DNA from: Branchiostoma floridae
Taxonomy: Eukaryota > Chordata > Leptocardii > Amphioxiformes > Branchiostomatidae
Assembly (NCBI RefSeq): GCF_000003815.2
Contig: NC_049984.1
Span: 797,004-861,003 of the forward strand
DNA length: 64,000 nt
Direction: 5' to 3'
The position numbers were made by a program, and so were the translations under genes. The notes beneath the pieces were generated by a model that was not told where the DNA came from, searched no databases, and worked only from the letters and a program-made list of their open reading frames with translations. Of this stretch, positions 12,996 to 62,456 are shown piece by piece; the first letter of the stretch is position 1; every line of letters begins with the position of its first letter.

Positions 12996-15430
12996 TACCA
13001 TTCAAAGGGTTAGGGTTAGGGTTAGAGCAAGAGTGTCTTCAAGGCGGTCAAACTTGGTATGATTAGAAAGGTCTATTGGTAGGTACTTGTATGCTGCAAA
13101 CCGTTTTGAAATTGCATGCTTTGTTGTGGAGATATGAGTGTTTCAATGCTAACCCTAACCATAACCCTAATCTAGGGCTAGGGTTAGGGTAAAAGGTGTG
13201 TTCAAGGCGGCTAAACTTGGTATGATTAGAAAGGTCTATTGGTGGGTACTTGTATGCTGCAAACCGTTTTGAAATTGCCTGCTTTGTTGTGGAGATATGA
13301 GTGTTTCAGTGCTAACCCTAACCCTAACCCTAACCCTAACCATAACCCTAATCTAGGGTTAGGGCTAGGGTTAGGATAAAAAGTGTGTTCAAGGCGGCCA
13401 AACTTGGTATGATTAGAAACGTCTATTGGTGGGTACTTGTATGCTGCAAACCGTTTTGAAATTGCATGCTTTGTTGTCGAGATATGAGTGTTTCAGTGCT
13501 AACCCTAACACTAACCCTAACTGTAACCCTAATTTAGGGTTAGGGCTAGGGTTAGGGTAAAAAGTGTGTTCAAGGCGGCCAAACTTGGTATGATTAGAAA
13601 GGTCTATTGGTGGATACTTGTATGCTGCAAACCGTTTTGAAATTGCGTGCTTTGTTGTGGAGATATGAGTGTTTCAGTGCTAACCCTAACCCTAACCATA
13701 ACCCTAATCTAGGGTTAGGGCTAGGGTTAGGGTAAAAAGTGTGTTCAAGGCGGCCAAACTTGGTATGATTAGAAAGGTATATTGGTGGGTACTTGTATGC
13801 TGCAAACCGTTTTGAAATTGCATGCTTTGTTGTCGAGATATGAGTGTTTCAGTGCTAACCCTAACCCTAACCCTAATCTAGGGTTAGGGCTAGGGTTAGG
13901 GTAAAAGGTGTGTTCAAGGCGGCCAAACTTGGTATGATTAGAAACGTCTATTGGTGGGTACTTGTATGCTGCAAACCGTTTTGAAATTGCATGCTTTGTT
14001 GTCGAGATATGAGTGTTTCAGTGCTAACCCTAACCCTAACCCTAACTGTAACCCTAATTTAGGGTTAGGGCTAGGGTTAGGGTAAAAAGTGTGTTCAAGG
14101 CAGCCAAACTTGGTATGATTAGAAAGGTCTATTGGTGGATACTTGTATGCTGCAAACCGTTTTGAAATTGCGTGCTTTGTTGTGGAGATATGAGTGTTTC
14201 AGTGCTAACCCTAACCCTAACCATAACCCTAATCTAGGGTTAGGGCTAGGGTTAGGGTAAAAAGTGTGTTCAAGGCGGCCAAACTTGGTATGATTAGAAA
14301 GGTATATTGGTGGGTACTTGTATGCTGCAAACCGTTTTGAAATTGCATGCTTTGTTGTCGAGATATGAGTGTTTCAGTGCTAACCCTAACCCTAACCCTA
14401 ACTGTAACCCTAATTTAGGGTTAGGGCTAGGGTTAGGGTAAAAGGTGTGTTCAAGGCGGCTAAACTTGGTATGATTAGAAAGGTCTATTGGTGGGTACTT
14501 GAATGCTGCAAACCATTTTGAAATTGCGTGCTTTGTTGTGGAGATATGAGTGTTTCAGTGCTAACCCTAACCCTAATCTAGGGTTAGGGCTAGGGTTAGG
14601 GTAAATGGTGTGTTCAAGGCGGCTAAACTTGGTATGATTAGAAAGGTCTATTGGTGGGTACTTGTATGCTGCAAACCGTTTTGAAATTGCATGCTTTGTT
14701 GTCGAGATATGAGTGTTTCAGTGCTAACCCTAACCCTAACCCTAACTGTAACCCTAATCTAGGGTTAGGGCTAGGGTTAGGGTAAAAGGTGTGTTCAAGG
14801 CGGCTAAACTTGGTATGATTAGAAAGGTCTATTGGTGGGTACTTGTATGCTGCAAACCGTTTTGAAATTGCGTGCTTTGTTGTCGAGATATGAGTGTTTC
14901 AGTGCTAACCCTAACCCTAACCGTAACCCTAATCTAGGGTTAGGGCTAGGGTTAGGGTAAAAAGTGTGTTCAAGGCAGCCAAACTTGGTATGATTAGAAA
15001 GGTCCATTGGTGGGTACTTGTATGCTGCAAACCGTTTTGAAATTGCGTGCTTTGTTGTGGAGATATGAGTGTTTCAGTGCTAACCCTAACCCTAACCGTA
15101 ACCCTAATTTAGGGTTAGGGCTAGGGTTAGGGTAAAAAGTGTGTTCAAGGAGGCCAAACTTGGTATGATTAGAAAGGTCTATTGTTAGGTACTTGTAATA
15201 TGAAAACCGTTTTGAAATTGTGTGCTTTATTGTCCAGATATAAGTGTTTAAGCGCTAACCCTAACCCTAACTGTAACCTTAATTTAGGGTTAGGGTTATG
15301 GTAAAAAGTGTCTTCAAGGCGGCCAAACTTGGTATGATTAGAAATGTGTATTGTTAGGTACTTGTAATCTGAAAACGGTTTTGAAATTGCTCGCTTTGTT
15401 GTCCAGATATAAGTGTTTTATCGCTTACCC
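12996..15430. repeat. Satellite with telomere-like inverted arms, about 14 units
   Basis: Each unit has a conserved core (TTCAAGGCGGCCAAACTTGG ... GGAGATATGAGTGTTTCAGTG). An arm of CCCTAA repeats follows, then a short spacer (TCTAG or TTTAG type) and an arm of TTAGGG repeats. The anchor TTCAAGG occurs at 13038, 13201, 13388, 13569, 13744, 13913, 14094, 14269, 14450, 14613, 14794, 14969, 15144 and 15313. Successive distances are 163, 187, 181, 175, 169, 181, 175, 181, 163, 181, 175, 175 and 169. All equal 163 plus a multiple of 6, so units differ by whole telomeric hexamers. The last two units are the most diverged. Confidence 0.95.
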
Positions 15431-16448
15431 TAAACCTGAATATTGCTTACTTAGGACCAACTACACAGGACCTGTACTGGCTGTGCTAACTGGTGCTAAG
15501 GGTCTAGACTGAATGTACTTACTTATCTATGACCTCATCTACCCTTGGGGGTGTCGCACTTTAATGTAGTCAAACAAACACCAGAAACGTTCAGGTTGGG
15601 CAAAAAAAGCTTGGTTTCCTGTGTCCCCCTTTTCCTCCCTAACATCAAGGTTTGTGTGGGGGTTGGCTAGCAGAGACTACTGAGAGGACTTATTTACTTG
15701 TAATCGTTATACTTTAAGTCTCTATCAGACCCCCTCCCTGGTCGAATATAGTAATAGTGGGGCTTTGGCCAAGCCATCCTAGTAGGAGTTAATTGGCCGA
15801 GGACTGAACTGGCCAGCTCACTGGATAGACTGTAAAACTTATTTGTCCCTACTCCTACTTTTAATCCAGCTGACACATCTGCTTGGAGACTAGTATACTT
15901 CAACTGCAGAGGAGAGTAGTATTAGTGCCATGTTTGTGAAGAAGGCAACATGTCAGGAGGCAGTCATGTTTAGTCTCGATTTTTTGCAGAATTCCATAAC
16001 ATGTGGCCATAGGAAGGACTGGTGGAGGATATGATATGACTTTGTCTTGAATAAAAAGCATTAAAAAGTGGTGACTTTTCACGTTCAGGTTCAGCCCATT
16101 TTGGACAGTACCGCAACCTGGCTGTATATTATTTGATAGACAAGCCATAGGCAACAGGCTGATTTTAGGGGCGACAATGAGTTGTTCAAAAAGCTGATCT
16201 GGGAAAAAAAATCTTCCTTGTTTGTTGTTGTGGACTTTGCCATCCAGAACATGGACTTTGACTTCAGAAGGAGACACTGAAATAGTTTGGTTTGACTAGT
16301 GGTAAATCCCAAGACATACTGTAGAATACTAAAACTGTCATTTAATGATTTTAAAAGCTTTGTCTCAAGCATTACACTCTGAGGTCAAACTTCTACACCT
16401 TTTGTTATCACACTGTGATACATATCTAATCTAAAACATTTTGCTCAT
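15431..16448. other. Intergenic DNA with one diverged MITE fragment
   Basis: No gene was recognised. Near 15875-15895 the reverse complement of TCTGCTTGGAGAC resembles the TCTCCAAGCAGA terminus of the MITEs at 32202 and 37044, so a decayed copy may lie at 15720-15900. Confidence 0.35.
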
Positions 16449-16593
16449 ACAAAACTAAATAACAAAGTGAGGTATTTCAGATGAACAAAACTAAATAACA
16501 AAGTGAGGTATTTCAGATGAACAAAACTAAATAACAAAGTGAGGTATTTCAGATGAACAAAACTAAATAACAAAGTGAGGTATTTCAGATGTG
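16449..16593. repeat. 36-bp tandem repeat, four copies
   Basis: Four near-identical units of 36 bp containing AAAACTAAATAACAAAGTG and GAGGTATTTCAGATGAAC lie head to tail. The near-identity implies recent amplification or homogenisation. Confidence 0.95.
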
Positions 16594-19512: not shown

Positions 19513-22500
19513 GTCGTCCTACTGCGACACACTGACAAGGGTCCACACATGTGCAGGACTTAGCACTATGTTGCACATAGCAAATAATTTCCCCAACACA
19601 CTTGTCATCTCCAAATACAACAGTGAAAGAATTGTGTTTCTGAACCCTTCTGTATGCCTTAGAGTGGTAGATTATTCCATGGATCATCATTCTGTAGGAT
19701 AGATGAAAGAAAATAACTGTCATTAGCCATACATATTGATAGACTTGAGTCCAAAGATGTAGACAATCAGTTTCAACATACTTAAAATAAAATAGAGCCA
19801 CACCCTGGGCGAAAAATTGCATTAAGTCATCAAAAATTGTCTATCATAATACATTGTATTTCTGTGGAACTGGTTAGAAAACAAAAAATTCTCACATCAA
19901 GCACATATATTTGTATGATAAAAATATCCGATTCCATGAATGATGTAACAAGATTCACTTCGCATGGAAAATGCAAATAAAGCAATTAACATGCATTGGC
20001 ATAATACCGGCCGTAAGACTTATACCGACCGATAAAAAATAATGGAATTTAAAGAGATCTACACATGCAACAATAGTTATTTATTATTATAGGTATGCAC
20101 ACTTCAGACATCTAGGTGTCCAATACATCATTTACAAAGCATCGATAACAATGCATTCCAAGACAACAAGGCCAAAAGTTTTCAGTTCATTTTCGGGGCA
20201 GGCGAGCTTGTCGTGGGACAAACACACTGTCACGTTCATCACCAGATTTGTAGATAATAATCACATGTGCTCACGGCACAAGACGAGCATGATTCAACAG
20301 CAATCTTGAATTTCTTTTGGTGACCTACAACTCGTGTAAAAGTGTGAGGAACCGTTGCATTATCGCCCGGATCTACGGCGGAATGGGTCAAATTGAACGT
20401 ACGCCGCCATTTTCCCGCCATTTTTAATGCTACGCCAGCAGTAAAGTTTTACGTCATAGCGGTTGTGACGGACCAAAATTAAATTAAAATTCTTGTCAGT
20501 ATACGCCCATTTTCTCAGGCTGTAACAGCAACATGTAACTGGAGAAAATGATGCGTTGATCATTTGCCAAATTAGCATTGCTTGAGAAATTGCAGTATAC
20601 GGGCCAGTATTATGCCAATGGATGTTAGAGGGTGTTTCTGTCTGACTACATTGCTATTGGACATTGGATGGCATTACTGAATTGTTAAAAGTCTTTCAAA
20701 ACCTCTTAGCACACTGTGAATACCTTGTAGGGCATAGGTACATGTGTAGGCAGCAAGGTGTATGAGATAAAACTTTATTTACCTGTCATATGTAGCCAAA
20801 TCTCCTAATGGTTGTCCTGTAGCTGCTGTAATTGCATTGTAGTGGTCCTCAACAAGCAGTCCTTTCCCATCTTGCTTGTCTTTCTTCATGAAGCCAACGG
20901 CAAAACAGTCATCTGCTATTCGATGGTAATTTGACCTGAAAATTAATGGCAAAACAGTTCTGTATCTGTGTCTGTATCTATATAGCCGGTATAACCGCCG
21001 TTCGGCATAACACACCAGCTTCTGTATCTGTATCTATATAGCCGGTATAATCGCCCTTCGGCATAACACACCAGCTTCTGTATCTGTATCTATATAGCCA
21101 GTATAATCGCCCTTCAGCGTAACACACCAGCTTCTGTATCTGTATCTGTATCTATATAGCCGGTATAACCGCCGTTCGGCATAACACACCAGCTTCTGTA
21201 TCTGAATCTATATAGCCGGTATAATCGCCCTTCGGCGTAACACACCAGCTTCTGTATCTGTATCTATATAGCCGGTATATAACTGCCCTTCGGCATAACA
21301 CACCAGCTTCGCAGGAACATGGCATGGCAGCAGCTGGTTATATTACACTGAACAGCCTATCACACCTACATTGTAACTTATGAACTTCTTTAAAACTATC
21401 CAGGGAAGAGTTATCCCCTACTGTGCTTGGTGATAACAAATTCCATTCTAGGATAGTTCTGGGAAAATAAGAATTTTTGAACACATCAAACCTAGGTTGG
21501 TAACTCTTATTGTCTTAATCTCCATGCAAGCAGATTCCCAGGGGTGTATGATTATAAGATAGTATCAAAGATGGCAAATGAGTATAGTACATGTACATGT
21601 GTTGGAGGCCATTCCACCTGGGGAAGAGCCCATTAGCCTTGCCTTTGTAAACATTACATTGGGGATTTCTAATTCCAGTTGTTGTTTAGAACTTAAACTC
21701 TTGATAGATTCTTAAAACCAATATATAGCAAAGGGAGTAAACTTTGTGGCCTTATACTTTCATAATCGTAGGGTATTGATCTTATGAGTAGCAACCAGTA
21801 TGTTGATAATGATAACAATAACGTGTCTTGACTGTTAAATCAGCAGAATGCCAACAATTTTTGTGTTTACTACGGTGAATGGCCCTTGTGGTTTTTTAAA
21901 AATTCTGAGCCATAAAAAATATGCAGACTCCTTATATGAAATGAAACAACAGCCTTCACATTATCACAATTTGAGAATGGAAATATCTGTGATGTATTGT
22001 ACTTACTTGTGTTCTGGGTTGCTTTGCCCCCAAATCTTCTGGAGAAAGGCATGTGCTGGACTGTCAGGTTTGAAACAGTCCCTTGTAACTTCTGGGAACT
22101 TTTGCATTATTGACACTGCTCTCATGATCTGTTGATAAAAGAATAAAGGCAGTGTGAGAAAACCCCTGTTAAGATATACTTTACAAGGCTCCAATACTCC
22201 CAAATTGATTAAGGAGTCTGACAGATAGAATTTCATTTGCACTTGTACTTGTACTTGGCAACACAAATCCATGCATTTTCCTCCAGAAGTGTAACAAATT
22301 TTCAAAAGCATTACCTAGTCAATGCTTATCCAGTAAATGTAGTTTGTGGGTGGGTGTTTTGAGCCCAGCTTCAACATGTAATTGTTCCCTAGGCTACCGA
22401 GAATATAATGTACTTTATATCAAATGATATTCATTTCAGAAATCTTAAATGTAGACAACAAACACATTGCCCACATCATTGAGTTCAGTTCACTGTTTGT

Positions 22501-25500
22501 ATTAACCTGTTTCATTCTATTCTAGAACTGACCTGCTCAACAATGCCATTTGTCCCATGAACCATCTTTATGATCTGTCCGTTGAGGTCTTCAAAATAAA
22601 AACAGGAGTTCGCCCAAAGTGGACCCAGGTCCCTGACATTGTCTGCGTAATGTAGCAGGCTGTGCACATTGCAGACTAGTTCTGAAGTTGCTGCATAAAC
22701 AAAAAATTTCATGACTGTACAAATTACAATCAAACACTTGATAAATATCTTAAAGAGAGTTTGGCAAAATACCTCATTAGTCAGTGTAATAATGTACCTT
22801 TAGTCATACTGACTAATAAGACTTTAAAAGCAGCAAACATACATTTACAAGAAGGGTAACTGTCCATTAAATATAATTATCCGTGTACAGCATTTAACTA
22901 GAATTTCTGGAACTTGGGACCGTGACACACATGTTCAATGTCAATACAAATTTTCATTCATATTGCTTGATCAATACCTACCATACAAGTTTCCGAACTG
23001 GCCCACAAACTGTTCAAGTTGTGCCTCTGCCCTGTCAACATCGTCTGTTGTAATGGATGATTGTAGGAGAGTGTGAATTGCCATCACAAGTAGTGTGTAA
23101 TGCTCATAGTACGCCTCTGGCAAGATGTTCAGCATGATGGGAAGAGAGTAATAGAGTAGCCACGCCCTAAACTCCGAAGCTAGAGATACAAAATGGTAGG
23201 GAACTCATTACCTATTGTTATTGTCTGGTGATACCCAAATATTTCAAAACTGAACACAAATGTATCTAATATGTAATTAATGTATAACATATCAATGAGC
23301 TACACCCAAGTGAATTAAGAGCTAGTAAGAATCAAACATTAGTGCTCAGGGTCAAAAAATCGATTTGGCTCATACTTTGCACAGTGATAGTACTTGGCCC
23401 ACAGCCCCTCAAAATAGCTTTCTTTCCGGTCATAACTAATTGTTGCCATGGCAACAGCCCAAACAAGTTTTGAGACCATTTTCACTGATTTTTGCATGTC
23501 AACAACATGGAAATTGGCCTTGAAGTTTTCATCACATTTTTCCAAAATCAGAAAAGTGACCTACTTCTGGTAACAGCCGTATGCTAACAAGACAAGGACC
23601 CAAACTTTGCAAGGATCCATTTAATAGCTAATTCAAGTATCTACATGTATATCTGTTATAAATTTCAAGCAAAAATACTCTACACTTTGAGACTTCCATC
23701 TCCTCAAATTTGGGCAAAAAATTAAGTTTTTTGATGACTGAAAACATAGTATTGTTTTGAGGCTGCCCATTGACTGAAATCTACATGTTCATCAACTTCA
23801 CACCTATTTTGTACAAGTCTAGACATCAGTTTAACAAGATCCTTTTCTATTTGTCGTTGTGATAAAGCATTTGGTAGTAATCAGGTCCTAAACTTGGGTC
23901 TATCAAACTACATTCATCCATAGTTAGATTATACTGCTGCTGGGTTCCCTGACGCAGGGGTAGTATGTAACAATACTGACTTGGCCAGAAATACATGTTG
24001 TCATGAATATAACATATAATTAGTAATAGGGGTGGGTACCATTACGGAAAAGTCAGGTACAGGTACAGACCTGTCTATTAAGAAAAAAAACTAGCGAATG
24101 CACAATACTTAAAACAATGGTCCATTTTGCTAAAAAGGAATCTGTTTAATGGAGTAATTCCTCTTCTCAATGCATTTTAAGATCCTATGTTCAATTCGAC
24201 ATGTAAACATTCTGTTAACTTAAAGCAATGTTTAACTACTGGTATAGGAACTTGCTCAAAAATGACTTATCAACTCTCCTCTACTTCGCTTTTGTTATTT
24301 TCTTGGACCGATATGCCCCAAAATATGTGAACATCTGCCTGTAAAATCTGTTTATTTTCCAATCGTTCCAAAATCCAGTACACTGATTTTTTTTCAGGTC
24401 TGTTTTTTCTGGACCGCTCCAACAAGAGAAACAGTATAATTGTACTGGTACACTGTACCTATTCAGCAATTTTATCTTAAAGTTTGTCAAATAGTTTATC
24501 ATCTCACTTTAGCATCCAACTTGTAACGTTACTTTTAACAAAACGGACAATGGATTGAAAATCAAATCAAATACTAATGAATCCTCTAAAAGCTATGTGT
24601 ACACATACCTTTCCAGTGTTGTAGTTGAGAGGAAATACTTCTAGGCCTCCTGTGGATTTCCATGGGTGGCTGAATTCTTTCCAGCATGTCATCCACATCA
24701 TGTACAGCATGACCACAGTACCATGGCTTTGTCTTATTCGCAGGGGTTTCAGAAAACCAAAATCGGACCAGACGTTTTGTTACTCCAAGTAGTGCATTAT
24801 GCATATAATCTACTGCCATCCCTGCGATAAGATCAAAGTATGGTACTATGGTCAGCCATGTACGACCCTTTATTCCAAAGCACTGTTGGATTGGTAAGAA
24901 AAGAAAAGCAAATTGAATATCGTGCTCAGGTTGGGCAGATTAATGATTTGCAACAAGGCAATTTGGTGCTGCATTTGAGCAATGTTGCACCTTTTCAACA
25001 TTCAAAACGAGGAAAGAAAGAGGAAATTCAGATCTTAACATGAAATTTTATGCATTGATTCATGACAGGTGTCCCCACTAGAGTTGTACAAAAATTGTTT
25101 GAGAAAATATAAGGAAGGACAATAATGCAACATACGTATAATAATTGTACCATTATTTTCATTGTTTTACATATTTCAATTTTCATACAAGTTAAGAAAA
25201 TATATCCATTTTTCAAATGCATTTTTTCCAGGATAAGTTCTATACATGTAGCTCTGTGGTGATAAAAAACAGACCTGAGAAACAAATTCAAAAATCTTAC
25301 CTCAGAGTCTGTGTTTCCTTCCACTGCAGCTGCAGCATGGGCTCTGGTGTCTCGATGTGTACGCAGGGGGCCCTTTGGGTTGTCTTGGCTGAATGGGTAC
25401 TGGTGCTTGTGACCAGTATGGGTACCAGGCTGTAGGCACTTGGGACACCCATATTTGCCGTTGTGTTGCTTCATATTGATAAGCAAAGCTTTCGCTTGCA

Positions 25501-28500
25501 TGTCTGCTGTGCACCCAACCAGGAACACTTTGGTAGTGTAGCTGTTCTCATTTGGTGGGTGTACCTCAATACCTAAGATGTTGGAAAATGAAGGTATACG
25601 TTGTACTGGTCTATTGTGGTCCGTGTAATTACTTTAATGTTACTAAATTATCAACAAAACATGTCATTGATGTGCATGTCCAGTTTTTTTTTGGAATTGT
25701 GTTCTATAAGTCATACATGTATATGTAGGCAGGTCTTTATGAGGACCCAAAGGGGGGGGGGACCAGACAATGCTATACGCTAAATTCTAATGGCCGGCTT
25801 CGTATTACGCTAAATTCAGGAAGCCTCTCTATGCTAAATTCGAAAGCTTCCCCACACATTATGCAGAACTCATCATCGAGCGACTGATTAATGGTAACCG
25901 GCGGCAGAGGAGGCGGCAGCAAATTTCTAATGCGGGGGGCGCAATATTGCTTACCGAATCTTCATCATCTTGAGTGCCAAAGGCGCGACAATTCTATGGG
26001 ATCCGGGGGAATGTTCACCGGGAAAATTTTGAAATCTTGACCCTCTGAAACACTGTATTTGAGGGGCACCTTTTCTCGCAGACTCTAGGCAATACTTAAT
26101 GTCACCAAAAACAATTGGTTTCAATTAAGCAACTGGATATGACTTTGCTGGAGTAAATGTTTTTGGTGTATCTTATTAGTATACCTGGATGTCTAACTTT
26201 CATCAACGAATCTTTATTGCCATTTCTATTAATCAAATACAGTTTGAATTTTTGATGGCGACGCCACCATGTTGATGTGAGCGCAGATGGTGCGGGGCAT
26301 CGCAAAGGAGGTCACCCGAAATTTTGAAATCACGACCCTCTGAAACGCAATTTCCTGCATTTTGACGGGACTTAGGGCAATGATTAGGGTAATGGTTTGA
26401 TTACGCAATACGCTCAATTCATCCATTACGTTTTGCGGTAAATTCCGGGGAACTACAATGCACTACGTAGAATTAATAAGAGAGTCAATTACGCTCTAAG
26501 CAAAATGCACTGATTACGCTCTACGGTGAATTAAGCGATCCGCCTATGCTCTACGTAAAACTAAAACGGCCGATTACGCTCTACGCAAAAGGGCATGCAG
26601 GCCGCCTTTTATGATTTGTTGTTGATCTAATTCTTACGAAAGCTATTATTTCTAAATTGAGAATTGCCCAAGGGTACTTACCTGACGGGTAATTGTGGTT
26701 GTCCCTTACAGGACCACGAAGTGCCATCACTGGGTCACATACCTTATTATAGTGCAGTTATCTCTTTTAGCCAATCAACGCCAAGAATCAGAGTGCAAAG
26801 GTTCCTCCTTCTCATCCCCCATCTGTTTCTCATTTCATACTTGGCGCAACCGGTGCTGGACGCCAGAATGGGGGGGCAGCTGACTACAATNNNNNNNNNN
26901 NNNNNNNNNNNNNNNNNNNNNNNNNNNNNNNNNNNNNNNNNNNNNNNNNNNNNNNNNNNNNNNNNNNNNNNNNNNNNNNNNNNNNNNNNNCTTCTGTAGA
27001 GGTTGAGAAGGTGGATTCACTGGACCAATCAGCAGCCTTCAGGATCTCGGAAGTGGAGAGTCCTGCTCTTTCTGCGGCTGATGTTGCCGCACCTCTGGTG
27101 GAGTGGGCGGCAAACTGGTTCGTGTTCAGCCCGGATAGGGACATCACAGACTTAATCCAACGAGCAATGGAGCTTGGGCCCACTGCTTTATGTGGTTTCT
27201 TGAAGGAAACGAACAGGTGTTTCTCTTCTCCTCTTAAGTCCTTAGTCCTAGCGAGGTACTTCTTGATGTAGGACATTGGGCAAAGGCTTTTGTCTTGCGG
27301 GAAGGAAGGAAAGAATACCTTCTTGAGAGGTTTGTTTGGCCTGCATGTCTTTGTGAGATGTGACAGGACGAAAAGGACGCCTTTGGTTTGGTAAGAAAGC
27401 CTGGTCACATCCAGCACGGCCAGTGTGGATCCTCTGTCTGCAGACGTTAGTGCACAAAGCATAGCAGTCTTGAGTGACAATTGTTTCAAGGAGAGGACTT
27501 TGGCTGGTGACAGTTGTTTAAGGTACTTGATTACTGGTGAGACGTCCCAAGTGACCACGTATCTGGGTCGAGGTGGTCTTTCTTGGAAGATACCTTTCAT
27601 GATGCTTCGGACGAAGGGGTGTTCACCAACCTTGACTCCATCAACTGGGGCATGGACAGTTGAAATGGCCGAGCGGACTACACCGATGGACCTGTATTGG
27701 AGTCCACGCTGGAATAATCCGTGAAGGTAGTCTAGAACATCCTGGATAGGACCTCGAACTGGATCTCTGTTCCCAGAATTGCACCAGCGCACCCACTTCT
27801 GCCAGGCCCCATTGTATTGTTTCTTGGTGCTGCCGCGCCAAGATGCGAGCATGAGGTTTGTAGGTCCTGACGAAATGCCAGCACCTTGGAGGTTTCTCCG
27901 CATACTGGCCATAAAGCCATCCTCATCTCTGGAAGGAGGGGATGAGGTTGACCGTTGTGAGGGAGACGAACCAGGTCTGGTGACTTGGGTAGAAGTATTG
28001 GTTGAGCGCACAGTAGCTCTAGAACTCGAGGATACCACACCTGAGACTCCCAGACGGGAGCCAGAAGGTATACGGTGGCCGTGTCCTGTACTAGTTTGTC
28101 TAGAACTCGGGGAATCAGTATCGGTGGCGGATATGCGTATCCTATCTCCGTTCCCCAGTCTATCATGAAGGCGTCTGTGGCAATTGCTGACGGATCTGGA
28201 CCCCACGTCACGTACCTTGGGAGTTGTGTGTTTATCCTGGACGCGAATAGATCTATGGAGACGTCCGTCATGAATGGTGTTAGCTGATGGAAGACCTGTG
28301 GGTCCAGCTGCCATTCTGTTCGGTCGTTGAAGACCCTTGACAGAGTGTCGGCTAGCTGATTTTGTTCTCCTCTGACATGACTTGCCGACAGTGTTAGTCC
28401 TCTGTGAAGGGCCCACTGCCACATTTCTAGGCTTAGTAGCATCAGTTGAACTGATCTCGTTCCCCCTTTGCGGTTCACGTAGGCGACTGCTGTTGAGTTG

Positions 28501-31500
28501 TCCATTCTGAGGTGAACTTGACCTTGGGGGGCGTCCTTGGCGAAGCACTGAAGGGATAGAAAGGCCGCCTTCAGTTCCAGTACGTTGATGTGGTCCTTCC
28601 GTTCCTCGGTTGACCACCTGCCCCCCGTCTTTCCTTTCTGACAGAAGCCTCCCCAGCCCTGGAGTGAGGCGTCGGTCTGAATGGTTAGACAGTCACTGGT
28701 TTCAGTGATGCTCCGTTCCATAGTGCTAGAGAGTTGATCCACCAGGTGAGGTCCTGGTGAGCCATGGGAGACAACCGGATCTTGCGGTTGTAGTTGTCTT
28801 TCATCATCTTTAGACCGAGTCTGAGGTCTTTCTGTAGGTACCGATAGTGTAGAGGGGCTAGCGGAACTGCTTGGGTGGTAGAAGTCATTAGGCCTACGAT
28901 ACTTGCCAGATGTTTCAGCGAAGTAGAGTTCTGTGCTAGAAGGTTCTGGCACAAGTCTACGATCTTCTCCACCTTGGGTTCTGGGAGGTAAATCTTCATC
29001 TCCACTGAGTTTATCTTGAATCCCAGGAATTCCCTTATCTGGTTTGGTTCCAGTTGGGACTTGTCTATGTTGATCACAAACCCTAGGTTCTCCAGGAGGA
29101 ATCTGGTCAGGTTCGTGTGTTCTGTGCAGAGATCTGCACTCTGAGCTAGAATCAGAATATCGTCGAGGTAAATTACGCACCTGACTCCCAGGGATCGTAG
29201 GTGGGCTACGACGGGTTTCAGAATCTTCGTAAACACACGGGGCGACGACGTAAGGCCAAAGGGAAGGACCGCGAATTCGTACAGAGTCGCTTTCCAGATG
29301 AACCTGAGGTATTTCCTGTGTTTGTGGAAGACAGGGATTGTAAAGTATGCATCCTTCAGATCTAGGTTGGTCATGAAGTCTCCCGGTTGTAGAAGTTCTA
29401 TAACTTTCTGGAAATGTTCTAGTTTGCAATGTTTCTTCTGCATGGCCTTGTTGAGGTGTTTTAAGTTTATTACCGGTCTGGAGCCCCCGTTTTTCTTGGG
29501 AACCAGGAAGATTGAAGAAATAAATTGGCCCTGCGTAGGTTGTGTAGGCTGAATGGCGCCCGAATTCAGCATTTTCTCCACCTCTGTATCCACCACTGCC
29601 GAATCTGTGTCTGAGTGGATCTTGGTAATAGGGATCCTGAACTGAAAGGGTTGTCTTAGAAGCTCGAGTTGATAGCCCTGAACTGTCTGTAGTATCCAAG
29701 GGTCTTGAGTGATTTGTTTCCAGTTGTGTAAGAAAAGTCCGGTGCGGCCCGTATCGGGAATTGGAAAGGTGGGTTTGACGAAATTGTACGCAGGGTGGGA
29801 GGGGGGCGCCCGCAGAGGTGGAGATCGAGGTGTTATTAGCTGGACTTTTTGTTCGGTGGGGGGCGAAACCCCGACGATTGAGCCTGGTTTTTCTTGTTGT
29901 AGAAGCCGCTTTTATCGTAGGGCTTCTTCCGGTAACGATCGAAATGAGCCGAGTGCTTCTGTTTGTGTCGCTGCGAGTTTGATGAGCTCGAGTTTTGGTG
30001 CGGCCTACTAGCCGCTTTCTTGGGTCCCAAAACGTCCCCCAGTGCCCTCTTAGAGGCCTTTGTTTTGGAAACCTGATTGACGAAGTCTGGACCGAACAAA
30101 GAATCGGAAGTGCTTACCTCCGGAGCGATTAGAAAGCGTAAGTCCTTATCGAGGTTGGGGCAGCACTCCTCTCTCCGGTACAGGGACATCGAGAAACTCG
30201 CATTTCCTAGTAGTACTAGTGCCGCCGAGATAGCCTTGGCTATCTCGTCCTTGTCGAGATCAGCGTCATCCTCGTGTTTCAGGGCATAGTAGGCGCTGGT
30301 TAGCGGTCTGGCCGCCAGCAGGAAACGATCTTGTATTTTGCGGAGTTTGGAGTCTTCGAGGACCAGTTTGTTATCCACACATGCCGCTTGCTCCGGCGTG
30401 AGCTTAGGAGCGGAGAGGGTGGCCGATAGGTTTTCGAACAGGGGGTATTGTTCGGAGTATTTATCGAAATCCTCTTTAGGCAGTCTAACGTTGAAAGCCT
30501 TATTGATCTTATCGAATAAGGCATCCGGAACGGGTTGTAAGAAGCCTTCTGATCCATACGAGGGGAAATCGGAAGAGAACATACCTTCCATCTGAGGATC
30601 CTCGGTGGGGCCGGCACCCCCGTCGTCCGAGGTGGTGTCGTCCGAGGCAAGATGGCGGACGGCATGGCCCGATCCGGTCTGAACCGGATCTTGCAGGCGG
30701 TCATCCAGGCGCGCCATTTGGTGCTCCACACACTGTACAAAGTTTTCAAACTTTGTCTCGAGGGCGCTGAGTTGAGGAGACTGGAAGCCGTGGCCCAGTG
30801 GTGACGGCATAAGCCACGGAAATCCAGGATAGCCGGGGGGAAGCTGGGGGAAGCTTCCCGGTGCGCTCGAAGAGGCTGTGGCCTGCGACGAGCCGCTCGC
30901 TCCGTTGTTGGGCATGAATGCCCCGGGAAATGAGCCGAACGGGAAGAAGTTCGGCCATCTCATAGCCTCTCGACCAGGCTCGAAGGAGGGCAAGGTCGGG
31001 ACGACTTCAGGAATCTCTTGAGAACCACTGGGATGCAGTTGGTTCGATTCCTGGTGGTGAGGCCCTCTCGCAGCCGGTGGTTTCTTGGGGGGAAGCTCGG
31101 TATTCCCGCCATTCTGGATGTCACGAGGATCGCCGGCTGTCTTGTCACGAGGATCGCCGGCTGTTTTGTCCTTCGCCTTCCCTCGGCGACCCTCTTCCTG
31201 TAGCTCACGGTTTTCCACGGTATTCTCGGAAGACATTGTGTCAAAAAGACTCGAAAACTCCTCCAGAAAAGGCAAAATTAAAGGAAAAAGGCCCGAATCT
31301 GAAGGGAACTCTGATAAAGAGCGCTTCAAGGAGGCGCCAAGAAATAAAATGAGAAACAGATGGGGGATGAGAAGGAGGAACCTTTGAACTCTGATTCTTG
31401 GCGTTGATTGGCTAAAAGAGATAACTGCACTATAATAAGGTATGTGACCCAGTGATGGCACGGAGTGGGCCTTGTGAGGGACAATCATTGAATTTGTAGA

Positions 31501-34500
31501 GGGGAATGGAAAATATTTACACAATGCGCAGCCACCACATTTCATGTAGAGTGTAATCAGGGCTAAAAAACCTAAACTGTGGTAGTCACCAGCAATGCCT
31601 TGGCCTGTTGGGTCATCCTTTCACTCATGATCAGATAACAAATGAACCAGAAACTTTATCCCAGGTCAATTTTCACAGTAACTTCCACATGTTACTGGGT
31701 CTAATGTTACATTACCAAACCAGGGCCCTGTCAGTACTAGTATGTGGGAACGAAAAGTATGATGTAAATAACATTAAAACACACAAAACATAAAAAATAT
31801 TGCGTCATGTCCAATTTATGCATAACTTATTGATTCCCGATTTTTGTCCAGGCCTTGGTTTGGAAATGTGACCTAAGCATTACAGGGAATTCCTCCTGGT
31901 GATAACTCAGTTGAAGGCCAGCCACATCTGTTACTGTACTTATCATGCGGACAAGAAGATTCATTGTCTAACAAAATGATAATTTCAAATAATGGAATGG
32001 ATTCTCCTCTATGTTAGCAGTGAACATGATATTCTAAGTTTTAAGTCCCTTTCTGATTATACCACATTCACAGATAACCTGTTTACATGATCATTAAGAG
32101 CTGATGATAAAGGTTTATTTCTCTTCAAGCAGATATATGGTGGCATAAGATAGCATCATAAGCTGTTAAAGCTGGCCAAGGACTGTTACTAGTCCTTTCG
32201 TTAATCTCCAAGCAGATCCTGCGGTAGCATAATATAGTATCGAAAGCTGGCAGAGGACTGAAACCGGCTTAGGAGTGTGTTTTGCTACATGGCAAATGTA
32301 CACCTCTTGGCTGACTACACTCCTTGGCCAGTTTGGTACTATCTTATGCCATTGTAGGATCTGCTTGGAGATTATCCTTTCGTCCCCTAGACCATTCGTC
32401 CCCTGGATCTTTCGTCCTCGGCATGGACGTTTTGTCCTCGGATGATGCTTGTCTATGCAACAAGTTATTGACTAGTCACAAAATTTCAAGAGTTTTTATC
32501 AAACTTCTATTAAAAAAAGTAAATTTTTTTATTTGTTTTAGATCCGCTTCCGATAACCGGCACAAAACGGACGAGTAAGAAAATTATTTTCATGCCGCCG
32601 AGTCCGCCATCTTGGATGTTTACGAATGTTGCAAAGCGCTTGTGCGCACCTTTTACCGAGTTTGTCTGAGTAAATAAGCAAACTTATAGGAAACTTTAAC
32701 AACATAATCAACTGTATGCACATTTTTGAAAAACTTAAGAATGTTCATGTTGGTGAATTCACCAATGATCCGGACCAACTGGAATTATATTGTAGTCAGA
32801 GTATGGCGCCGTGCAACAGAGGACTGAGCAACTATTTTCCCGATATAAGCGGTCGGAAAATGCTTTCAAAGAATTAGATTTAATCAACTACGGAATAGGA
32901 CGTGATAAAATGTCTTATATGTTGCCTTTTGGGGGTTAAACACTGTAACATGACGAGGACGAAAGAACCATGACGATCAGGGCGAAACATCCAAAACGGG
33001 GACGAAAGATCTAGGGGACGAAAAGACCTGATACCACCAAGGACCTGGCCGAGGAGATTCTATTTGCCATTTTTCACCATGATTCCTGTAATGAGGGTCT
33101 GCATGCGGGGTCCTGACAACGATTTAATACGCTAAGTTCAGGATGGCTGAAGGCTACCAATGCTTACGAAGTCACGCTTCATCCCACTACAAATTACGTA
33201 AAATAGAATTATAGCTTCCCTACGAATCACGGGAAATTAAATACCTACGCCTTACAGAAAAGAGCAAGCAGACCCTCTATAATTTCTTGTTAAAGAATTT
33301 CTGGTGCTTAGCATTTTCAAATCAAACGTATGTACTTGTTTTGACAAATAAAGCAAAATTAGATTTTTTTTTAGCAAATTTAGTTTTCTTTAAAAGACAC
33401 AAACTGAGGTCAGGTCATCCTTTGCTTAACAACTTTCTAATATGGGTATTTCAGCTCAGTGCAGACAAACAGGAAACACTGCTTGAATTCAATTTCACAG
33501 TACATTATAATGTGTGCTACATCTCTTTCAAAAGAATTCTGTCTGCACACAGCACACTCTGTGGTTGGGTCACATCTGTTACCAATAGAGGAGTTCTCAG
33601 TGCACTGCAGATTGTGCTTGGATCTACATGTTTCAGATACAATGATTCCTACTTCTGGCCTAATCATGCTTATCAATATAAGCATTATCAGGGCCATAAC
33701 TGCGGGGAAAATACTAGGGGGAAACATCCAAACGAAAGTCATGTGAGACATTAAACATACATGTTTGAGTTGTGGCAATTTGATAATAACCTCAGGGTGC
33801 ATTCTAAAAAGAATCAAAAGATTTGGTCACAGCCTGCTATTCTTTAGACTGTAATGTTGCTTTGTTGCCGTTTAATTTGGTTTGCTTTTTTTTTGTTCAT
33901 ATAATCATGAGAATCATAACCTTTAGTTACCTCTGACCACATCTGCCTTAGATTAGAAACAAGGGCAGTGCTGTGCTCTGAGCCTCAAGGCCTCAAGGCA
34001 GCCCCTATCTCCCAGGACCTTCCTCCCCATAGAGCATTTGGTGGCCAGGCACAGCATTCCAAAGCCCCTAGCCTAATGATCCTAAGCCATACTACTCTGT
34101 TACATTTTGACCCTTCCTGTCTCCTTGACATTTTACTTTCTTTACTCAGATGATATCTGATTCTACAACAATCTTGTATTTAGCTTGAAGAAAGGGCAGC
34201 CACCCAGTATTATATTAGATGTTATTTATATTAAATCAGTTGTGATCCATGTCATCAATAAAACTTTCTTAGATAATTTGGCCTGCTATCAACAGACAAG
34301 ACTAAGTGATCTGTCAGACATGCCTCAAATTGATGTAGCATTATCATACAGATACATACATGTGCAAATTGTAATCATCCACCCTGGCTTTTCATTCGAT
34401 ACTATGTCCCCTAGCATGTCTGAACTCCCCATTGTAAAGTCTCCACAGTGTATTTGAATACATTGCAATCATTGTTGATACATACTTGTACAATGTAAAC

Positions 34501-60500: not shown

Positions 60501-60984
60501 AAATCTAATATTCCTACACTGGTTTATATGATTGTATATCTTATAAGCCATGTTATCAACATGCAACATTTGGTCTGACTCAAACCAACTCAGCATCACA
60601 GAAAATCAGGTTTATAACATGGCTAAACAGTTACACCACCAAATAGAAGCGTTACCACTACATGTATACAACAAGGCATTATAACCATCACAAGTACATT
60701 GTAATATACAACTGTAGATGGCATTAGGCAAAAAGACATGCATAGGCAGAATCTAGCAGATTGCTCTCTGGAACCATTCTCTGATATGTGAAGGTCAGGA
60801 ATCTACTGAAGTTTCCCCAATGATGGGCTGTCCTAGTAGAGATTTAGCTCAGACTTTTTAGGAATGGCTGACAAAATAGAAAGCCTAAGAAAAATGCCAT
60901 TGAAAGCAAGCCAGAGCCTCATTTTTGCTTGGAGAGTAGAATCATTGGCCTATGGTATGAGCAGTCTAGGTATATTCTGGGCTC

Positions 60985-61510
60985 ACGTTCTGGGTGCAGA
61001 GTAGGGTGGGGGGTCACATCGTGGGTGCAGAGTAGGGTGGGGGGCTCATGATCTGGAAGCAGAGTAGGGGGTGGGGGTATCAGGTTCTGGATGCAGAGTA
61101 GGGGGTGGGGGGATCACCTTCTGGATGCAGAGGTGGGGGGATCACATTCTGGATGCAGAGTAGGGTGGGGGGGTCACGTTCTGGGTGCAGAGTAGGGTGG
61201 GGGGTCACATCGTGGGTGTAGAGTAGGGTGGGGGGCTCATGATCTGGAAGCAGAGTAGGGGGTGGGGGTATCAGGTTCTGGATGCAGAGTAGGGGGTGGG
61301 GGGATCACCTTCTGGATGCAGAGGTGGGGGGATCACATTCTGGATGCAGAGTAGGGGGTGGGGGTGGGGGGATCACGTTCTGGATGCAGAGTAGGGGGTG
61401 GGGGTGGGGGGATCACATTCTGGGTGCAGAGTAGGGTGGGGGGCTCACGTTCTGGCTGCAGAGTAGGGTGGGGGGATCACGTTCTGGGTGCAGAGTAGGG
61501 TGGGGGGTTC
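60985..61510. repeat. Minisatellite grown from the last codons and stop of the membrane-protein gene
   Basis: About 14 units of 33-38 bp built on TTCTGGGTGCAGAGTAGGGT plus a G-rich tract. A higher-order block of about 190 bp (60988-61166) is repeated at 61177-61350. Read on the - strand, each unit resembles the codons for PPPYSAPRT and the stop in the final coding exon (61477-61542), so the array is an expansion of the gene's own 3' end. Confidence 0.9.
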
Positions 61511-62000
61511 TCTGCTGTGTAGGCCGGTGGAGCGGTGGCCATCTGGAAGACAGGAGACAAATAACTGTTACTAATATATCAGGTGACAGCATTCAATGAG
61601 ACAATTCTGATGTACTTTGGAGAGGGGTAAACGTAAAAACAGCTGATGAGCCACATTGCAGGCTTAATCAGAGTTATTCAATGCAAATAAATAGAGAAAT
61701 GCTTTGAAGAACAATTCAGCTCTGCCCTGTTAGTCCCCAACACAGAAATGAAGGACGGTACAACTTGAACTCACCGTGCTGAAGTCCTTGGCCTGGTACG
61801 GGTTCTGGTACGGGGGCGGTGCGGACGGTTGGGCGGGGCTGGGGTGTACGGGGTACGTGTAGGCTGTGGCGTCCGCAGCGTGGTACGTGTTGTTAGCGCC
61901 CCCTTGCAGCCGGACGTAGCCCTGCCGCTTGTTCCGCCCGCACAGCCAGCAGATCAAGATGATCACTTTCACCACAACAATCAGGATGATCAAAGCAATG
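61477..62000 (-). CDS. Single-pass membrane protein of the Shisa/CYYR1/WBP1 type, 3' part
   Basis: Two exons: 62000-61775 and 61542-61477 (TGA at 61477-61479), joined in phase. The first encodes a transmembrane helix (ALIILIVVVKVIILICWLCG), then a basic stop-transfer NKRQ. A cytoplasmic tail rich in Pro, Tyr and Ala with PPPYQNPY follows. The second encodes MATAPPAYTAENPPPYSAPR and the stop, with another PPPY motif. Such tails in Shisa, CYYR1, WBP1 and VOPP1-like proteins bind WW domains of ubiquitin ligases and adaptors; that is family knowledge. The Cys-rich extracellular domain expected upstream is not visible, probably past the gap at 62457-62556 or outside the window. The exact family member is undecided. 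Confidence 0.65.
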
Positions 62001-62456
62001 CTGGAACAAAGGTTACAGGTGTCAGTAACTTTCACTCTCACACAACACTAGCGCAATGCTGGAACAAAGGTTACAGGTGTCACAAACTTTCACTTTCACA
62101 CAACACTAGCGCAGTGCTGAAACAAAGGTTACAGGTGTCGGTAACTTTCACTCTCACACAACACTAGCGCAATGCTGGAACAAAGGTTACAGGTGTCAGT
62201 AACTTTCACACAACACTAGCGCAGTGCTGGAACAAAGGTTACAGGTGTCAGTAACTTTCACTCTCACACAACACTAGCGCAATGCTGGAACAAAGGTTAC
62301 AGGTGTCACAAACTTTCACTCTCACACAACACTAGCGCAATGCTGGAACAAAGGTTACAGGTGTCAGTAACTTTCACTCTCACACAACACTAGCGCAATG
62401 CTGGAACAAAGTGTTACAGGGTGTCACAAACTTTCACACAACACTAGCGCAGTGCG
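62001..62456. repeat. 58-bp intronic minisatellite containing a copied splice acceptor
   Basis: Eight units start at about 62001, 62059, 62117, 62175, 62227, 62285, 62343 and 62401, spaced 58 bp with one of 52 bp. Each unit has CTGGAACAAAGGTTACAGGT. On the - strand this includes CTTTGTTCCAG followed by CATTGC, the same as the real acceptor of the exon ending at 62000. The array is cut by the 100-base gap. Confidence 0.92.

Follow-up and report, generated by a model that had tools for sequence, protein, structure and literature searches.

Telomere-type hexamer spacers in a candidate satellite superfamily of the amphioxus Branchiostoma floridae

A tandem array within a 64-kb stretch of Branchiostoma floridae DNA (the window, i.e. 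the whole stretch of 64,000 nucleotides that was analysed, C6:797004-861003) is probably a satellite with microsatellite-like telomeric spacers that undergoes turnover through unequal exchange and slippage, and whose relatives in central clusters are candidate pericentromeric satellites; we put the probability of this reading at roughly 0.7. The array would be a local member of a satellite superfamily in which a conserved core, some 100-112 bp long, alternates with a spacer of telomere-type hexamers. The core family extends over many chromosome-sized contigs, and its subfamilies vary widely in how many hexamers they carry and in which direction these point. The window array has been rebuilt by the swapping of whole blocks of units and has diverged units at its right edge, and the number of hexamers probably shifts by replication slippage or by misaligned exchange inside the arms. 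The central clusters would represent pericentromeric heterochromatin, and the window copy, located 0.81 Mb from the contig start and hence distal, may be an offshoot that lacks a function of its own.

Results

Units, linkers and core of the window array

The array contains no N bases and is bounded by TRF at 13006-15437. Its parts, in positions of the window, are as follows:

13006..15437, + strand: tandem array of 14 cores and 13 telomere-hexamer linkers (TRF, anchors and hexamer parse)
13007..13026, + strand: outer left TTAGGG arm of unit 1 (from the sequence; GGTTAG run at 13008-13025)
13038..13149, + strand: core of unit 1 (112 bp, as in 14/14 units)
13201, 13388, 13569, 13744, 13913, 14094, 14269, + strand: starts of the 112-bp cores of units 2-8
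14450, 14613, 14794, 14969, 15144, 15313, + strand: starts of the 112-bp cores of units 9-14

The anchor TTCAAGG occurs 14 times, from 13038 to 15313, and the 13 distances between successive anchors (in order 163, 187, 181, 175, 169, 181, 175, 181, 163, 181, 175, 175 and 169) are all congruent to 1 modulo 6, while the modal classes modulo 5 and modulo 7 comprise only 4/13 each. The original prediction that the distances follow 163 + 6n, with n = 0 to 4, is thus borne out, and its two companion claims also hold at this locus: the core (TTCAAGG to GC) has a constant length of 112 bp in 14/14 units, and length variation is restricted to hexamers, into which the arms of 13/13 linkers can be parsed. 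The 14 cores contain 27 variable columns and at least 33 substitutions, with zero indels. A rigid core is ruled out, since 20/327 family cores carry an internal indel within the first 100 columns; because indels are that rare throughout the family, finding none in 14 window cores is unsurprising.

Each of the 13 linkers consists of TAA, two to six CCCTAA-type hexamers, a two-base hinge (TC or TT), TAGGG plus TTAGGG-type hexamers, and a tail of fixed length. Most of the length change is carried by the CCCTAA arm with its 2-6 hexamers. The TTAGGG arm, which comprises two or three TTAGGG-type hexamers, has the same size in 11/13 linkers; only in units 1 and 13 is it shorter, by one hexamer. A single variant hexamer (CCATAA, CTGTAA or CCGTAA) is present in 11/13 linkers, and arm length mostly tracks this variant: units 3, 6, 8 and 10 combine CTGTAA with three proximal hexamers, the exception being unit 13, which combines it with two. 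As the arms are the sole short tandem repeat in the unit, steps of 6 bp would arise automatically, and the 6-bp rule is most simply the ordinary outcome of a microsatellite-like spacer within a satellite. The hexamer parse rules out a chance origin of the steps; a probability of one sixth per spacing was set aside because the units have a common descent.

Turnover of the array

Three regions bear on how the array has changed:

13383..13876, + strand: first half of a duplication, units 3-5 (exact runs of 127, 66 and 299 at shift 525, 2 mismatches)
13908..14401, + strand: second half of the duplication, units 6-8 (same comparison at shift 525)
15144..15437, + strand: diverged edge units 13 and 14, with a decayed terminal CCCTAA arm (core divergence)

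Units 3-5 recur as units 6-8 in a three-unit duplication shifted by 525 bp, with 2 mismatches in 494. Owing to this duplication, and to the fact that arm length tracks the variant hexamer, the 13 spacings represent fewer than 13 independent events. Cores of units 2-12 differ from each other at a mean of 3.5 of 112 positions; unit 1 differs from them at 5-7 positions, and units 13 and 14 at 14-19. The array thus has the features by which satellite DNA is recognised, namely head-to-tail units, inner units that are more alike than those at the edge, and exchange of blocks (the 525-bp duplication). Inner homogeneity together with edge divergence is the usual mark of homogenisation by unequal exchange. 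Among the modes of change that had been proposed, recombination has left its traces in the three-unit duplication and in the diverged right-edge units; slippage would be the natural reading of the whole-hexamer steps.

Predicted folding of the arms

Two kinds of predicted structure were located:

13683..13733, no strand assigned: representative junction between cores 4 and 5, CCCTAA arm followed by TTAGGG arm (predicted hairpin; inverted repeats)
13537..15132, + strand: ten predicted G-quadruplex-type motifs, one per TTAGGG arm in ten arms (pattern count)

Each unit had been expected to fold into a hairpin of telomeric repeats. The arms are indeed predicted to pair strongly, but both the fold and the inverted repeats place the pairing where two units meet instead of across the single unit. 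For one junction, the DNA fold of 13680-13756 has -20.8 kcal/mol versus a mean of -9.1 for shuffles (sd 1.95, z -6.0), and 15-23 base pairs per junction are predicted in 13/13 junctions (calculated without shuffles). The + strand of the entire 64-kb window carries 12 quadruplex-type motifs, of which ten reside in array arms, the first at 13537-13557 and the last at 15112-15132.

Surroundings in the window

A hidden transposon at the window was considered and rejected, as there is no other copy of the core in the 64 kb and no flanking inverted repeat above noise. On the - strand, positions 26884-31620 contain what we read as a DIRS-like retroelement, with an RVT_1 match (E 5.5e-24), a weak hit to Phage_integrase that does not reach the Pfam cut-off (E 0.00055) and one frame that runs into N. 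Another frame on the - strand (25028-25633) weakly matches DUF1258 (E 0.0096, again short of the Pfam cut-off) and looks transposase-like by eye. TRF also reported minisatellites at 20965-21310, 60979-61507, 61995-62455 and 16449-16591, the last of which is a 36-bp unit repeated four times without change.

The wider family and the orientation of its spacers

In the assembly searched (513,431,437 bases, 431 contigs), a query from the window had at least 322 matches. Around listed matches 37 stretches were retrieved, three of which represent one C2 cluster, and a core-only profile identified 394 cores in these stretches and the window array together. All 37 stretches contain the core, with at least two core matches each, though they had been picked as search matches. 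The queries bore hexamers and core over several units, and the 505-base query favoured arrays, so that the link between core and hexamers and the absence of single copies are partly a matter of ascertainment. A telomere-type hexamer, variants allowed, is present in 300/301 linkers, a share that is biased upward by the hexamer-bearing queries. The array had no match in Rfam at gathering scores; as expected for an animal repeat, exact core patterns were absent from viral contigs and prokaryote genomes, and blastn gave none in plasmids.

Subfamily names were assigned from spacing (and linker) ahead of counting. The counts below cover spacings of 140-260 and cores scoring above 60, so that stretch L039 contributes none. 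Each line gives the type, its linker, the linkers with at least two hexamers of each orientation, and the spacings in the modal class modulo 6 and, as controls, modulo 5 and modulo 7:

Window: both arms; 13/13; modulo 6, 13/13; modulo 5, 4/13; modulo 7, 4/13
C2: both arms; 54/55; modulo 6, 42/55; modulo 5, 27/55; modulo 7, 25/55
C3: CCCTAA only; 0/8; modulo 6, 6/8; modulo 5, 4/8; modulo 7, 5/8
171: TTAGGG only; 0/54; modulo 6, 48/54; modulo 5, 32/54; modulo 7, 30/54
160: CCCTAA only, mostly exactly 160 bp; 0/64; modulo 6, 52/64; modulo 5, 52/64; modulo 7, 51/64
203: both arms, TTAGGG predominating; 80/107; modulo 6, 33/107; modulo 5, 40/107; modulo 7, 31/107

An excess modulo 6 is clear in the window, C2 and 171 types, marginal at C3 and absent from the 160 and 203 types, in the case of the 160 type because one length dominates. 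A universal rule is ruled out by the 203 type, in which 33/107 spacings modulo 6 stand against 40/107 modulo 5; unit lengths incongruent modulo 6 therefore occur at other family loci, not at the window array. The description of a satellite with facing arms likewise fits the window array and is too narrow for the family, the 160, 171 and C3 types carrying one orientation only. The arms of the 171 type, taken between fixed flanks, vary in steps of six in 34/34 parsed cases (20/54 unparsed), and the exceptions in C2 are, by eye and in the cases printed, small indels or bigger rearrangements.

Two further observations concern the arrangement of these arrays. In stretch L012 (C3:11.167-11.171 Mb), a 171-type array adjoins a CCCTAA-only array of opposite orientation, and the stretch includes decayed cores without hexamers nearby. 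AAGCACTA and TAGTGCTT, by eye an inverted pair, flank the TTAGGG arm in stretches L040 and L041 and in the majority unit of the 171 type.

A midpoint-rooted tree was calculated with FastTree for 327 cores, which remained of the 394 when those with N and those that were short, weak, late-starting or of the minority strand had been taken out. The 160, 171 and 203 types form clades, with support of 0.91, 1.0 and 0.78, respectively. The window cores do not constitute a clade of their own and group with 160, C3 and single C18 cores (0.89); the C2 cores likewise form no clade. Judging from the sequences compared in this tree, the core seems to be older than the arm arrangements, and arms seem to have been gained, lost or reversed.

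Chromosomal placement and the carrier of the 203 type

Sites of the 160 and 171 types were collapsed by hand from the best matches listed, which makes the map incomplete; the 20 sites obtained lie on 13 chromosome-sized contigs at a mean relative position of 0.81 (0 end, 1 centre; range 0.48-1.0), the least central being C17:14.52 Mb at 0.48. Their central bias has a KS p of 1.8e-7 for the 20 listed sites and a p of 2.7e-6 with one value per chromosome. Where a chromosome has several listed sites, as seven do, these are close together (P 0.00045), yet up to 0.23 of the length apart. The placement test omits the unplaced contigs C213, C391, C171 and C233 and, for the 203 type, C158, C323 and C227, as well as the C2, C18, window and CCCTAA-only C3 loci and the matches at C9:15.14 and C4:21.41 Mb. 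Among the matches listed there is no 160 or 171 site on C2, C7, C10, C16, C18 or C19; C2 and C18 bear other family types. A search for the core near chromosome ends had been suggested together with the prediction; the listed 160 and 171 sites are central, not terminal. By their position, the central 160/171 clusters are candidate pericentromeric satellites. The unplaced contigs C213 and C391 are rich in 171-type array and are perhaps unassembled satellite clusters.

Loci of the 203 type lie distally (mean relative position 0.26 for 14 placed loci, p 0.006). Flanks shared with other loci of this type (500 bp or longer, at no less than 80%) are present on the left in 16/17, on the right in 15/17 and on both sides in 14/17 loci, on many chromosomes. 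The carriers fall into two groups; within each, flanks are up to 99-100% alike, and between the main members the left flanks are about 76-85% and the right flanks about 66-71% alike. When the C19 and C16 loci are compared, strong similarity runs inward from a TG-rich tract, with scattered short matches beyond. Since the 203 type is distal, lacks the excess modulo 6 and sits inside a dispersed repeat, part of the family appears to have been spread by mobility. Few flanks are common to several of the 160 and 171 loci, and the window flanks (up to 2.5 kb per side) gave no match to other family flanks at E 1e-6.

A coding carrier was rejected on the basis of one gap-free 203 locus (C16, 21 kb), in which frames of at least 130 aa near the array lie only inside its repeats; other frames are found toward both outer ends, some of them reverse transcriptase-like by eye. 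The region around this array (C16:2223001-2243999) also contains a TG-rich tract and a 43-bp minisatellite.

Discussion

The shared flanks of the 203 type bear on the possibility that a larger non-autonomous mobile element carries the arrays as its central repeats, in the manner of the oyster Helentrons discussed below, and that the window copy is a remnant. Loci on many chromosomes, 14/17 of them with both flanks in common, are what such an element would leave behind; however, the window flanks resemble no other family flank at E 1e-6 and few flanks are shared among 160 and 171 loci, and we consider this reading unlikely. A MITE-like DNA transposon, with telomere-type hexamers as its terminal inverted repeats and an array formed by tandem insertion or duplication, appears quite unlikely. 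MITE-derived satellites are on record in a review (PMC12628747), the arms of the window array are inverted repeats, and the array opens with a TTAGGG arm and closes with a decayed CCCTAA arm, which makes a whole number of arm-core-arm units. Against this, inverted arms are missing from the 160, 171 and C3 types, the window edges have by eye no target-site duplication, only an inverted ATTCA, and no single copies were seen, with at least two core matches in 37/37 stretches, a count in which the 505-base query favours arrays.

The hexamers of the arms are those of animal telomeres, and the genome is rich in interstitial (TTAGGG)5 tracts (379 + 571 overlapping exact matches; control 0), so that a chromosome-fusion remnant or a telomerase-healed break, amplified later with the adjoining core, had to be weighed as well. 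Of 18 such sites derived from 100 listed matches (C1, C2 and the start of C3), one is at a known family array, and in that part of the genome interstitial telomeric tracts thus lie mostly apart from known arrays. That the same core occurs with three arm arrangements, and at many loci, speaks for shared descent over many fusions, and the tandem order TTAGGG-core-CCCTAA in the window is not that of a single fusion point. With 14 alternating units at C6:810 kb, the array is neither a chromosome end nor a lone head-to-head junction. An origin of this kind is therefore very unlikely. That the array or its step pattern is an assembly artefact of collapsed repeats is extremely improbable: several family relatives do adjoin runs of N, and their copy numbers are unreliable because of these borders, but the window array is free of N, its units bear distinct variants and its structure is repeated on many contigs.

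There is, finally, a slim chance that the core family is a (peri)centromeric satellite whose hexamer spacers are retained in any orientation because they have a role, e.g., for telomere-repeat-binding proteins, quadruplexes or hairpins. If this were true, centromere and telomere DNA would share a motif through selection and not through descent. On the reading that we prefer, a satellite with microsatellite-like telomeric spacers, the larger family and its central clusters are the part most worth pursuing. Against it speak the distal position of the window copy and of the 203 type with its dispersed carrier, the chromosomes on which no 160 or 171 site is listed, and those that have two or more sites. 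The core, present centrally on at least 13 chromosome-sized contigs, provides a concrete candidate for an amphioxus (peri)centromeric satellite, and spacers that switch orientation while the core stays alike offer a natural experiment on whether telomere motifs in satellites are passengers or are kept.

Among the titles and abstract openings listed in literature searches, none described a centromeric or pericentromeric amphioxus satellite, and neither a core combined with three orientation classes of spacer nor such a satellite from amphioxus was seen described in the literature listings. A satellite of fishes of the family Sparidae is reportedly associated with telomeric sequences, to go by the title of a work by Garrido-Ramos from 1998. 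The amphioxus 'mirage' minisatellites, which include units of 150-160 bp in a globin gene, have homogenised units and diverged cluster boundaries (PMC3087553). They resemble the window array in being amphioxus tandem repeats that are homogenised inside and diverged at the edges; unlike it, they span intron-exon borders, and the available text on them leaves telomere hexamers unmentioned (PMC3087553). Oyster Cg_HINE Helentrons are non-autonomous elements with satellite-like central repeats, some of which are related to classical satellites (PMC7492417). The 203-type loci are comparable in that short dispersed arrays lie inside carriers, a likeness drawn from arrays and shared flanks, whereas the window array is without such flanks and telomere hexamers are unmentioned for the oyster repeats in the accessible part of that account (PMC7492417).

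The pericentromeric satellite PaB6 of Prospero autumnale has a 249-bp monomer that contains seven intact TTAGGG motifs, and a 256-bp variant has been attributed to insertion of TTAGGG (PMC4273535). It belongs to a plant, and its hexamers are dispersed in the monomer, with no facing arms or subfamilies of opposite orientation in the portion of the description available, on which the comparison is based (PMC4273535). Like the window family, it is a tandem satellite with telomeric hexamers within the monomer, and telomere-hexamer satellites with length variants of this sort are already known (PMC4273535).
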